Of a DNA stretch of 64,000 bases, positions 5,038 through 61,037 are shown in pieces. The DNA is taken from assembly GCA_003562475.1 (NCBI GenBank), contig PWUU01000048.1, forward strand, positions 52,206-116,205, in the 5' to 3' direction. How positions within the stretch are numbered: position 1 is the first letter of the stretch; the number at the start of each line of letters is the position of its first letter. The position numbers and the translations under genes are program-made. A model generated the notes under the pieces. That model was given only the letters and a program-made list of their open reading frames with translations, was not told where the DNA came from and searched no databases. This stretch comes from Dehalococcoidia bacterium (GTDB lineage: Bacteria > Chloroflexota > Dehalococcoidia > GIF9 > AB-539-J10).

Positions 5038-5112
5038 GTGAATGGAATGACTACCGTAGGGACCAAAAAGAAGTGCCCCAGATGTCCTCGCAGCTTGTAC
5101 TCACGCGACCAC
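5038..5112 (+). pseudogene. Truncated small zinc-ribbon protein
   Basis: Downstream of GGAGAG, an in-frame GTG/ATG pair opens MTTVGTKKKCPRCPRSLYSRD. Small zinc ribbons of environmental bacteria share a KKCPRC-x-x-x-L-Y-x-x-RD start followed by a second CxxC. Here the second cysteine pair never appears: the reading runs at once into the 3' end of the small-RNA element at 5113. I infer a gene cut off at that boundary. Very short and uncertain. Confidence 0.3.
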
Positions 5113-5217
5113 CCCCAAGTTCTCCTGTCTTCCTTGTCCCTCAACTTGTGGTCTTGGGAGTCGAATGACACTACCCCTCAGGAATCAAGCCCTTTCTTGC
5201 TGCTCAGTGACCTGGGG
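5113..5217 (-). ncRNA. Structured RNA element, copy D (short, degenerate)
   Basis: Read on the minus strand, it begins GCCCCAGGTCAC, identical over 12 nt to copy C at 60.6 kb. It continues with an AAAGG block and TTCGACTCC, then AAGACCACA-AGTTGAGGGACAAGG, which aligns with copy C over about 40 nt. It closes with CTTGGGG, able to pair with the 5' CCCCAGG (one G-U). It is about 40 nt shorter than the other copies because the segment between the core hairpin and the 3' arm is missing, and no U-run follows. Its promoter geometry is retained. Probably a decayed or truncated family member. Confidence 0.45.
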
Positions 5218-5225
5218 CAAATAGT

Positions 5226-5255
5226 AAGATAGCCTATGGCGATAGGGGCTGTCAA
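5226..5255 (-). promoter_or_regulatory. Sigma-A type promoter of RNA copy D
   Basis: On the minus strand TTGACA (5255-5250), an 18-nt spacer and TATCTT (5231-5226), then 8 nt to the CCCC that starts the element. The 8-nt distance is the same in all four copies. Confidence 0.5.
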
Positions 5256-5422
5256 GGACGTTTCACTCGTGGAGAGACAGATCGAATGCGATTATCTCTG
5301 GTTTTCCGCCCGTGCGCCGTCCGGTGCGGCGGAGTCCAGGTACGCACACAGAAATGCCATGCCACAACCGCCACGAGGCGCAACAGGCGACGGCCACGAG
5401 TCAATCGGGAACGACTGAACGG

Positions 5423-35519: not shown

Positions 35520-37256
35520 CTAGGTGGACGTGCGAAGCCACTCGCCGAGGGGCCAGACCTGAGGTTTGATGCCCTTGGTCGAGGCGAACTCCAGCACATC
35601 ATTGTCAGCGATAAGCCGCACTATGCCGGGCTCAACCTTCAGCGCAATCTGGACTTCCGGCCGCCTCTCCAGGAGTATGTTGGCCAGCAGTATCGCCTTC
35701 TCGACGCCATCGCCACGGCCATAGTTCCATACCTCGTCCGGCTGAGCCAGCCGACCTTCCTCATCATAAATCGATTGGTCCGGCATCTCCGAGACCAACC
35801 CGATAACCTCCGCATACGATAGGTCGCGCATCTCCTCAAGCGATACCGGATTCCGCTCGAGTGCTGCGACGAGAAACGGCCAGGGATCGGTTCGATTGAG
35901 GTCACGATAAGAATAGAATGCGAGGTCCACTACTGGATGGCGAGATCTCAATTCCTCGAGTCGATTGAGCAGTTGCTCTCGACTCATGTCGGGCCGTAGG
36001 CCAAGAGGCTCTCCTTCTTTGACGAACCTCTTCTCTGCGGGATCAGGGAGACGCGGGTCTACGTGACAGAAGGCGGCCAGTGCATCGATAGCAATTCCCG
36101 CGCGCTCGCAACCCTGCCCGAGGACATCCTTCAAACGCTGCCGATCCTCGGGCTTATCGCAGTCTATCTGACTCTCCCGAATGAAGACCTCAAAATCGTT
36201 CAGCACCAGCCTTTCGGGTAATGGTGCTGTCTGATACTCCTCTTCATCGATGTCGTCAAGGAGCTTCGCACGGGTCGAGTCATTCAGCCTGAAGGGACTC
36301 CCATGCTCATACGAGAAGGCACGCTCGGCAGCAATATAGTGGTCGGTTCCATGAACCGGCCAGCGTACCTGGAAGCAGCTCTGTGTCTCCCTGTGGTGTC
36401 GCAGGAAATTGACCAGTATCTCCTCGGTAATCGGGGTCTTCAGAAAGGCGCGAATCCGCTCAGAGAACCGCCTGTACGCGCCAGGGTCTATCGTTGCCTC
36501 CTCATGCACAGCGTGGATGTAGCCTGTATCATGTGCGACGATGGTCACGCGCTCATTCTCCAGAGCGCGGCGCGCCTGAGCAGACAGCGCCGTGCCGTTG
36601 AACCACATTGCCTTTGTCAGAAGCCGGCGGTTGTTCGTGAGGATGCCCTCACCGATATCGATATAGTTCTGGGAATGCAGGGGCGTAGCCATCAGGTAGA
36701 TGTCCTCCAGAGGGATACGAGCCACGATGAAAAGCGCCGCCGCGTACAAGGCCGCGAGAGATACACACTCACCAGCACCACTGGCATACGCCGGTTTGAA
36801 CTCGAAGGCATCCATTGCTTCGACAGTCTCCGTCTTCCAGTACGGAATCACATTCCCTTCGTACTTATCCAAGCCGAAATGGGTGCGTATGTCGATGCTG
36901 AAGTAGTACTTATCCCCTTCGTAGCCAAAGAGCGCATTTGACTGGGCCAGAGTATCCTCGTCGATGAAATCGCGAAAGCGCTCCAGTTCCTTGTCTTTCG
37001 TCGTCAATCCCCACGTATCCAGGTCGAGATTGAAGACGTAGTGATCCATGATGAACTGCTTGAGTCTATTGATACGCCGGTAGGGTTTTGCTCTCTCTAT
37101 CCTGTCGAACCAGGGATCCTCGCGCCAGCGCCAGATACGCGGAGACATCAGGTTCGCAAGGAGGAGGCTGTACATGAGTTGAGGGAATATGAACACCTCC
37201 ATATCCGACAGCGTAACTGCAGATGACCGTAGTTCCAGTTCTCTTGACCGCGCCAT
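35520..37256 (-). CDS. Large uncharacterised protein with transglutaminase-like core
   Basis: 578 aa from ATG 37256 (GGAGAG upstream; the track's extra ten residues are unlikely). Residues about 155-200 read GAGECVSLAALYAAALFIV..ATPLHSQNYIDIG: a Cys at the start of a helix, a His about 35 residues later and an Asp four residues beyond, the catalytic order of transglutaminase-like cysteine peptidases. The rest has no motif I know. No signal peptide, so cytoplasmic. RNA copy A lies about 210 nt upstream on the same strand, ending in a U-run before this gene. Monocistronic. Confidence 0.72.
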   Translation of the reverse strand: MARSRELELRSSAVTLSDMEVFIFPQLMYSLLLANLMSPRIWRWREDPWFDRIERAKPYRRINRLKQFIMDHYVFNLDLDTWGLTTKDKELERFRDFIDEDTLAQSNALFGYEGDKYYFSIDIRTHFGLDKYEGNVIPYWKTETVEAMDAFEFKPAYASGAGECVSLAALYAAALFIVARIPLEDIYLMATPLHSQNYIDIGEGILTNNRRLLTKAMWFNGTALSAQARRALENERVTIVAHDTGYIHAVHEEATIDPGAYRRFSERIRAFLKTPITEEILVNFLRHHRETQSCFQVRWPVHGTDHYIAAERAFSYEHGSPFRLNDSTRAKLLDDIDEEEYQTAPLPERLVLNDFEVFIRESQIDCDKPEDRQRLKDVLGQGCERAGIAIDALAAFCHVDPRLPDPAEKRFVKEGEPLGLRPDMSREQLLNRLEELRSRHPVVDLAFYSYRDLNRTDPWPFLVAALERNPVSLEEMRDLSYAEVIGLVSEMPDQSIYDEEGRLAQPDEVWNYGRGDGVEKAILLANILLERRPEVQIALKVEPGIVRLIADNDVLEFASTKGIKPQVWPLGEWLRTST

Positions 37257-37464
37257 ACACTCTCCGTATCGAAGTTGCCGTGCCACACGAGACTATATGT
37301 GGCAGCGCGCGGCACGTCAACCAGGCTTGCGATCGCTCACCGGCCCCGCAGTCCCCGGCCGGTTCAGCGCATTGCCAGCCACGCGGGTTAGATTGCCAGC
37401 TGCGCGTCAGCGAGAAGCAACTCAGACGGGCCGGAACACACGAGACACCATGAGGCGAGGGCAG

Positions 37465-37622
37465 AAAAAGACCCCAAGTGGCCTCACTTTCCTCGGGATC
37501 TCGGCTTGGTTACCTCAGGCTTCAGGCCTTTCCTAATCCCTCGACGTGGAAGTCTCGGGACTCCTCACAGCCACCACCGTCCGGGTATCCAGCCCCTCTA
37601 TCCCTTGCGCGGTCACTTGGGG
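37465..37622 (-). ncRNA. Structured RNA element, copy A
   Basis: On the minus strand the RNA would start at CCCCAAGTG (37622-37614), which pairs perfectly over 9 bp with CACTTGGGG (37480-37472). TCTTTTT follows directly. A block GGCTGGATACCCGG near the 5' side matches copy C (GGCCAGACAACCCGG) and copy B (GGCCAAGGACCCGG). The core GAGTCCCGAGACTTCCACGT matches copy C at 17 of 20 positions, and GTGAGGCCACTTGGGG matches the 3' ends of B and C. TCCC/GGGA flanking the core loop becomes GTCC/GGAC in C, a compensatory change. No ORF with support overlaps it. Confidence 0.6.
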
Positions 37623-37630
37623 CGCCCTGA

Positions 37631-37659
37631 ACGTTAGCAGCGGAGAGCAGACCTGTCAA
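37631..37659 (-). promoter_or_regulatory. Sigma-A type promoter of RNA copy A
   Basis: On the minus strand TTGACA (37659-37654), 17 nt, TAACGT (37636-37631), then 8 nt to the CCCC start. Same geometry as copies B and C. Confidence 0.6.
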
Positions 37660-37970
37660 GAGCCCGTTAGCTTTAGACAAGATGATCGCATGCGATTTTC
37701 CGGTATTTCCGGCAGGCCAGCACAAACGGTCTGATTTCAGCATCCTTGCACCAGGCGTTCACGTTCTGGAACAGTCGGATTCGCTGCGAATGCACATGAA
37801 CCGCTGTTGCATGCCCACGCGCGATGAGTGAAGAAAGACTGCGGGGCTTGCTTCGGCCAGTCGGAGACGCTACCGGCTTTGCAGAACAGTCCGGTTCATG
37901 CCATCATGGGAAACTGGTCTCGACCGTGAATCCTGGAGGCCGAGCCCTATCTCAAATGGAGGAGATTCTT
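37660..37970. other. Gap upstream of RNA copy A
   Basis: About 310 bp before the FMN reductase gene. Short frames occur on both strands but none with a recognisable motif. The promoter of the FMN reductase should lie here but is not obvious. Confidence 0.35.
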
Positions 37971-41595: not shown

Positions 41596-41852
41596 CCGTT
41601 CCCGCTCTCCGGTACACCACGCATCCACCCCGGGATAGCCATCGTATCTGCGTTCATATGCTCTCGGCAACGCTGAAGGCGGCAGGAGCCGAGACCTAAC
41701 AGTGCCCAATGGTCAACACGTCGTGCGGTGCATGTGCACCAACGAGGGACAGCGGACTGAACTGTGGCCATCGTGAAGACCGGCACAGCCGATCGACGGA
41801 TACGGACCAACGGAGAACCCGGGCGCGTCTGAAGCAAGAAGAGGGATAATAG
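41596..41852. other. Gap after korG
   Basis: About 260 bp between korG and RNA copy B. No supported ORF. No strong intrinsic terminator for korDABG is visible here. Confidence 0.35.
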
Positions 41853-41998
41853 AAAACCCCAAGCGACCTTACTGTCGGGTTGGGGCCTCTCCCTGCAGGC
41901 TTCCGCCGCCCCTGGCCTCGCTCCATACATGCAACGAAACCATCTCGGCTGTTCTCTGCCGGGTCCTTGGCCTTTCCCCTGAGCTCGATTGCTTGGGG
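41853..41998 (-). ncRNA. Structured RNA element, copy B
   Basis: On the minus strand CCCCAAGC at the 5' end pairs with GCTTGGGG at the 3' end (9 bp counting the flanking A-U), followed by TTTTC. Blocks shared with the other copies are GGCCAAGGACCCGG, the CGTTG..ATG..GAGCGAGG core (compare CGTTGATGGACAACGAGG in C), GAAGCCTG (with A) and GTAAGGTCGCTTGGGG. The last, plus TTTTCTATTATCC, aligns with the end of C (TTTTCTGTTGTCC). It lies between convergent genes, so it is not a leader of either. Confidence 0.6.
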
Positions 41999-42006
41999 TA
42001 TCTTTT

Positions 42007-42035
42007 ACCTTACCGGACACTAACCTTCATGTCAA
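42007..42035 (-). promoter_or_regulatory. Sigma-A type promoter of RNA copy B
   Basis: On the minus strand TTGACA (42035-42030), 17 nt, TAAGGT (42012-42007), then 8 nt to the CCCC start. Confidence 0.6.
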
Positions 42036-59918: not shown

Positions 59919-60558
59919 GTAGAGCTGAGTGCAGACCCTGGAAAATGGCGTCTGTAAGGGCAGTCGTCACCTGACGCTGATGTACCACGCGGACATTGGC
60001 GAGGCCAGGAGCAACAGAAGACGGAAACTGTCGGCGACCATGCTCAAGATGGTGGTCATCTGCCTGGATGAAGGCACTGTGATGATGTCGGGGGTGGTGG
60101 CTGGCTTCACACGGGTTCAAGAGAGGAACGGACGACACGCTGCCGGAAAGATGCTTCACACTCCCGGGATGTGGAAAGTACCCTTCAGTCTCGGAGTGTG
60201 CCATAGAGAATGACGAGAAAATGATAAGCGAGTGTGATGAAGCGAGGGATGGGATCTAGATTCGGGAATTCAGGAATCTCGAGTTTGCCCATCCTCTTAC
60301 ACCCAATTCATACGCACTGCTTTCATGCTTTCGGATTTTCGGGTTTTCTGATTTGTGAGGTTTCATCGTGTCGGTCTGCGTACGCGTGGGTCCGAGCTTG
60401 TGGCCACATAAAGTGCGCGATTGTCACTGCAGATACTCTTCACCCTCCGGCACTTTTGGTATCACGTATGTCTCCAGGTCTATCCGGACATGTGTCGCGC
60501 CCAACTGTGCTGCATCGGTTTTCCCACACGATTCTTGTCCCCCGTGACCGGCATGTCC
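59919..60558. other. Long gap without a supported gene
   Basis: About 640 bp. Overlapping ORFs on both strands have no recognisable motif. From about 60230 the base composition becomes more AT-rich than in neighbouring genes. No tRNA or terminator recognised. Confidence 0.4.
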
Positions 60559-60587
60559 TTGACAGATCCATCATGGTCTGGCACGTT
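60559..60587 (+). promoter_or_regulatory. Sigma-A type promoter of RNA copy C
   Basis: TTGACA (60559-60564), 17 nt, then the -10 position CACGTT (60582-60587; the overlapping ACGTTA is no better), then 8 nt to CCCC. The -35 is perfect and its distance to the RNA start (32 nt) equals that in copies A and B; the -10 is weak. Confidence 0.45.
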
Positions 60588-60595
60588 AGGAGTTG

Positions 60596-60743
60596 CCCCA
60601 GGTCACCAGGCGGTCATAAAAGGCCAGACAACCCGGGGAGGGACGGTCTTTCGAGTCCTGAGACCTACACGTTGATGGACAACGAGGACAAGAGCACCCG
60701 GGGGACTGCGTCATAATGAGGCTGTGAGGTTGCCTGGGGTTTT
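60596..60743 (+). ncRNA. Structured RNA element, copy C
   Basis: CCCCAGG (60596-60602) pairs with CCTGGGG (60733-60739), followed by TTTTC. The core GAGTCCTGAGACCTACACGT is shared with copy A, and the longer stretch to GGACAACGAGGAC with copy D. CGTTG-ATGGA-CAACG can form a hairpin within it. The 3' end GTGAGGTTGCCTGGGGTTTTCTGTTGTCC parallels copy B. It is the only plus-strand copy and lies about 290 nt upstream of the molybdopterin gene. Confidence 0.6.
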
Positions 60744-61037
60744 CTGTTGTCCAAGGGTATCGGCTACGTTGGTTGCGAGCCTCTTCCATCCACTGTGCCC
60801 CCCGGCTATTGCAATACGCGCAGGCGACCTGAGAACAGGTCGCCAATCGCAAAGGCACCATTCAACTCTGCGACCTCCTGCAATGCAGATACGCGTGTGC
60901 ATGAACGCGGCCTGGCAGTGCTCAGAACCCGGGAGCTGCCCTGCGTCTACAATCTACAACGCGTGTGGAGCAGGGTGGTGGGTTAATGAACCTTGATAAT
61001 TGCCGGTCAGGAAGATAAAGTCTGATAACAAGAAGAG
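60744..61037. other. Gap between RNA copy C and the molybdopterin gene
   Basis: About 290 bp with no supported gene. The last 60 nt before the start codon are AT-rich and may hold the gene's promoter. Confidence 0.35.

Follow-up and report, generated by a model that had tools for sequence, protein, structure and literature searches.

A putative rod-shaped non-coding RNA with its own promoter, present in several copies in a Dehalococcoidia genus and related to a wider Chloroflexota family

In a 64,000-nt stretch of a Dehalococcoidia bacterium (GenBank assembly GCA_003562475.1, contig PWUU01000048.1, positions 52,206 to 116,205 of the forward strand), hereafter the window, we characterized by computational analysis a locus, copy C, which very likely is a genuine gene for a small structured RNA. 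It is best explained as one paralogue of a Chloroflexota non-coding RNA family, with transcription being inferred in the absence of expression data. As an overall reading, to which we assign a probability of about 0.5, we propose a protein-binding, rod-shaped RNA which possesses its own promoter and has multiplied in the genus, where transcription, operator function, binding and partner are each inferred. The initial annotation had described the locus as a member of an RNA family with its own promoter, and this description is borne out by covariation, by a promoter that 83 of 87 members share at a constant spacing and by conservation throughout the order and beyond it. Judged by Rfam and the literature searched, the family is new; its mechanism is not established.

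Copy C and its relatives

Copy C comprises about 155 nt, beginning with the conserved start TGCCCCAGGTCACC, and a T-rich run follows directly after CCTGGGG at 60740 (Table 1). The stretch noted initially, 60559–60743, corresponds to the region from the -35 box through the T-run past the closing stem (60740–60743). It lies in a gap of 1.12 kb between a 101-aa ORF with a weak DUF5752 match (end 59918) and a molybdopterin oxidoreductase gene (start 61038), and the tested ORFs inside this gap are without a Pfam domain, in agreement with the gene-free gap of 1.1 kb reported before. The search for further family sequence in the rest of the gap, which had been suggested as a check, was carried out with the two covariance models introduced below and returned none.

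A one-sequence nhmmer search with copy C revealed three relatives in the window, at about 5.1 kb (E 5.5e-16), 37.5 kb (E 3.4e-5) and 41.9 kb (E 1.3e-3), all of them on the minus strand, so that copy C remains the sole plus-strand member, as had been claimed. The nearest of these is the 5-kb copy with 70.5% over 112 nt, including 14 identical nucleotides around the start, TTGCCCCAGGTCAC, and copy C is also recovered by similarity in the other search direction, starting from the 5-kb copy. The covariance model R1, built from copy C, the 5-kb copy and a third copy outside the window (C57:20121 of the same genome, G000), recovers the untrained 37-kb and 42-kb copies with E 1.6e-13 and E 3.9e-8, respectively, which excludes chance. 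The 42-kb copy is divergent in its interior and has the same closing helix. Copy C itself scores 169.3 bits with R1 and 89.9 bits with the broader model R2, and it was itself among the training sequences. Directly downstream of the 37-kb copy, a 588-aa protein is encoded (35520–37286, minus strand) for which no NCBIfam or Pfam match was obtained, and a homologous flank adjoins the matching RNA copy in five other genomes of the genus.

Table 1. Positions of copy C, its promoter elements and the related copies in the window
Feature	Position	Strand	Remarks
Degenerate palindrome of ATCGNATNCGAT type, TTCCCACACGAT	60521..60532		copy C, centre -67; putative activator site
-35 box TTGACA	60559..60564	+	at least 5/6 positions kept, at the right distance, in 83/87 members
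Extended -10, TGG + CACGTT	60579..60587	+	hexamer 60582-60587; TGnTAnnnT pattern in related members
Copy C, rod-shaped ncRNA body	60594..60750	+	5' end inferred from promoter, 3' end from U-rich tail
U-rich 3' end after closing helix, terminator-like	60740..60750	+	conserved in R1 and R2 alignments
Copy A (5 kb)	5064..5219	-	-35 at 5250-5255; palindrome 5281-5292; R1 154.5 bits
Copy B (37 kb)	37460..37624	-	-35 at 37654-37659; perfect palindrome 37685-37696; R2 110.1 bits
Copy D (42 kb; lettering of this report)	41845..42000	-	-35 at 42030-42035; R2 79.8 bits

In total, the models indicate about nine copies in this genome, located on contigs C57 (20121, 57269, 89665, 94050, 112799), C16, C38 and C104, with a short one on C49. 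Genome copies were sought by models only; a 16-nt blastn match at C104:39559 was rejected as a family copy, as it lies in a different sequence context and has no model match. R1 matches all seven genomes of the window's genus among the 41 relatives searched, with weaker matches elsewhere, and the exact pattern GAGGTTACTTGGGGCNNTTTTT, searched across 84,980 species, occurs in 16 stretches, each of which carries a Dehalococcoidia or Chloroflexi/Chloroflexota label. Among 84 genomes of the order, 78 yielded members with R2; they represent 30 of 33 genera and have between one and nine copies apiece. Within the class sample, 72 of 294 genomes match at E ≤ 0.01. Of these, 48 belong to other orders and generally have a single copy; the number 48 is an upper figure, since some of the weakest and shortest matches, such as a 35-nt hairpin in G220, are probably due to chance. 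In the phylum sample, 33 of 350 genomes match, including a family of another class (f102). The training sequences of R2 come from near the window's order, so that absence elsewhere may reflect divergence.

The occurrence of several copies per genome, three of them in tandem in G003, could point to a mobile element or repeat that spreads through the genome. However, several copies reside at orthologous loci within the genus, the ancestral copy has a conserved gene order, and no family member was found in the viral, phage and plasmid collections searched, which renders this explanation extremely unlikely. The tandem copies (C18 at 3182, 3592 and 3979; locus L052) are spaced by about 400 nt and each have a promoter.

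Promoter, upstream palindromes and predicted rod

The promoter of copy C shows a 17-nt spacer and 6 nt between the -10 hexamer and the conserved start. Upstream sequence is absent from both R1 and R2, and the same promoter is nevertheless found before the weakest R1 matches outside the genus, down to E of about 0.04; the -10 element follows TGnTAnnnT in most member groups. As an exception, the -35 element in two genomes of 1.36 and 1.52 Mb deviates from the TTGACA pattern. Transcription of copy C would accordingly depend on a promoter of the sigma-70 type whose -10 is extended. It had been suggested beforehand that the weak -10 box might need either an activator or an extended -10. Both halves of this suggestion find support, the latter in a TG one base upstream of the hexamer and the former in the degenerate palindrome at -67, but expression data are lacking.

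Most copies of the genus carry the palindrome ATCGNATNCGAT with its centre between -65 and -68, where activator sites are typically found, and the palindrome near -66 probably serves as an activator site in the genus, its operator function being inferred. Three short copies display a related palindrome, GTCGTATRCGAC or a version with one mismatch, at about -22, between -35 and -10. From these positions we infer activation at -66 and repression at -22, and possibly a single regulator acts in two modes at both types of site. Palindrome sites also lie upstream of G000c49, G005c78 and G006c106. By coordinate comparison, 9 of the 13 exact ATCGCATRCGAT sites in the genus precede family members. A palindrome regulon extending beyond the RNAs was not apparent at loci L177, L182 and L183, which share no gene and hold no hidden RNA.

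Copy C folds with -69.2 kcal/mol (z -2.55), and six copies of its own genome, folded separately, all close into the same rod. For the closing helix, compared over 31 diverse members, 94% of the cells are paired versus 89.2 ± 0.6, and 23 changes on both sides are observed versus 7.2 ± 2.3 in shuffles. Over the whole rod, compared in 12 close or subfamily members, 87.5% are paired, falling to 30–49% in slid controls, and 12 pairs carry changes on both sides versus 4.9 ± 1.4, a value reached in 0 of 500 shuffles. RNAalifold of the 12-member alignment pairs columns 54–56 with columns 97–100 in one of the helices. These predictions suggest that the transcript would form a long rod, in which a sequence-conserved closing helix of about 11–13 bp is followed by short helices with purine-rich internal loops between them, and that the closing helix together with the U-rich tail probably ends transcription. 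A purine-rich module, GUARGYNNNNRYYGRA, is present in 28 of the 62 non-genus members, versus 0.3 expected from the shuffled mean, and is absent from the genus copies; our interpretation is an internal loop with a bulged G (loop E-like) beside a short hairpin.

Since many genomes have the element directly at the 3' end of a convergent gene, it might be regarded as merely a bidirectional terminator or another DNA element between convergent genes. A conserved promoter precedes it, however, its interior helices covary, and the genus copies are not located at the gene in question, which encodes the HGPRT fusion discussed below. We consider this explanation very unlikely. A role as base-pairing regulatory sRNAs, in which paralogues with diverged interiors target different mRNAs, would account for the divergence of the interiors while ends and promoters are kept, as well as for the upstream sites differing between copies. 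Against it, the RNA is mostly paired in a covarying rod, and the conserved portion is the closing helix, which offers no exposed seed, so that this role appears unlikely. With few free bases available in the rod, protein binding is the most likely function rather than base-pairing to mRNA; it is inferred without binding data, and we favour it at somewhat better than even odds, bearing in mind that pairing of mRNAs with some unpaired stretches remains possible.

Relation to 6S RNA and other known RNAs

Rfam 15 contains no family matching the RNA at gathering score, and permissive searches gave nothing near a gathering score over the RNA, with otherwise chance-level or unrelated matches. SRP RNA (RF00169) was dismissed as a candidate, since it gives a separate match in 11 of 21 relatives, among them G010, G025 and G030, which also carry the family RNA elsewhere. 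RF00169 has matches in 11 of the 14 relatives outside the window's genus and in none of the genus genomes (G000 to G006), whose SRP RNA may be divergent. Two further observations concern individual loci. At L108:993-1153 (minus strand), a match to the HPnc0260 antisense RNA reaches 49.6 bits, below the gathering score of 59, and at L038:1-209 (G027:C71) an RNase P RNA (RF00010), truncated where the locus stops, lies about 1.3 kb from a family member. A search of the literature on known Dehalococcoides non-coding RNAs found nothing relevant, with subscription papers largely outside the search.

Among the known RNAs, 6S RNA (RF00013, SsrS) resembles the family most directly in being autonomous, of similar size and paired at its ends, and outside the window's family the RNA is mostly single-copy. 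The family could thus represent the 6S RNA that Dehalococcoidia seem to lack, or else a 6S/Ms1-like substitute; RNA polymerase would then be held by a rod that imitates open promoter DNA. In line with this, RF00013 has no match in the window, in 31 relatives or in the listed class members, yet it finds 6S RNA in 78 of 350 Chloroflexota genomes, and the ancestral RNA is single-copy, mostly 120–195 nt long and closed at its ends. Ms1, although longer at about 300 nt, is likewise a lineage-restricted structured RNA in a group where canonical 6S RNA is not found. As a lineage-specific RNA of Actinobacteria that binds RNA polymerase, it provides a precedent (PMC9130861). On the other hand, one genome (G507; 74% complete, 3% contamination) carries a canonical 6S RNA (68.7 bits) on one contig and, on another, a promoter-bearing member of the family. 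Furthermore, the folds predict short purine-rich internal loops and no large central bubble as in canonical Chloroflexota 6S RNA, although both are predictions only, and R2 misses the 6S genes in the tested loci, with best scores below 11 bits. The family RNA also lacks a match to the 6S covariance model and is multicopy in this lineage. Given the presence of both RNAs in G507 and the different fold, the RNA is not simply 6S RNA, and we regard an equivalent of it as doubtful. Two weak 6S-like matches were seen in f102 genomes (G414, G449).

The convergent HGPRT-fusion gene and the place of the family

At many loci across the class, the protein-binding rod RNA we propose adjoins a conserved gene, whose product contains GAF and phosphoribosyltransferase domains. 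The C-terminus passes TIGR01203 (HGPRTase) with 198.9 bits versus a cut-off of 150 and shows weaker NCBIfam matches to the RNA-binding relative PyrR; the middle part is labelled nuclease-like on weak grounds, namely a PDB match to an endonuclease I chain with E 0.05. Within the order, 54 genomes have the protein, and in 39 of these the RNA is convergent (tail-to-tail) at a distance of -3 to 185 nt, corresponding to 39 of 47 outside the window's genus versus 0 of 7 inside. The pairing is also seen in other orders and in another class, where three f102 loci have the nuclease-HGPRT half nearby. Probably, the ancestral RNA gene was arranged tail-to-tail with this GAF + nuclease-like + HGPRT gene, and in the window's genus the ancestral locus was left, with the copy lost or moved and the gene multiplied into several copies. 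With filters switched off, a search of the window's own genome for a diverged RNA copy next to the HGPRT fusion returned none. There, the GAF-HGPRT fusion is followed on the same strand by a second HGPRT-like gene (C80:26016-27937), and no family RNA adjoins.

Retention of a non-coding RNA gene beside its own RNA-binding protein is known for OLE-OapA and Y RNA-Ro60. The present arrangement resembles these in that an RNA gene is kept beside one particular protein gene and differs in the convergent fusion as the neighbour and in the absence of binding data. A resemblance to the PyrR/pyr-leader system arises from the phosphoribosyltransferase fold which, judging from the weak NCBIfam matches, PyrR and the neighbour share, whereas the family RNA does not precede a pyr operon as its leader, and the neighbour scores as an HGPRTase. 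The GAF + nuclease-like + HGPRT protein may be considered the first candidate partner, with RNA polymerase as the second, and neither is proven. Since the protein adjoins no copy in the window's genus, the link between RNA and protein may be mere inherited gene order. Only tentatively, and at odds well below even, do we extend the reading to an undescribed Chloroflexota non-coding RNA class that binds and controls, or is processed by, the adjoining fusion, coupling purine salvage to a dedicated RNA whose paralogues multiplied per lineage and are regulated differently.

The class Dehalococcoidia includes the organohalide-respiring Dehalococcoides. An undescribed RNA seems to run through a whole bacterial lineage, in nearly all genomes of the order and in parts of the class and phylum. 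Its role may lie in replacing 6S RNA or in serving the adjoining HGPRT fusion, and the family displays the transition from a single-copy RNA gene to a set of paralogues whose upstream sites are new.
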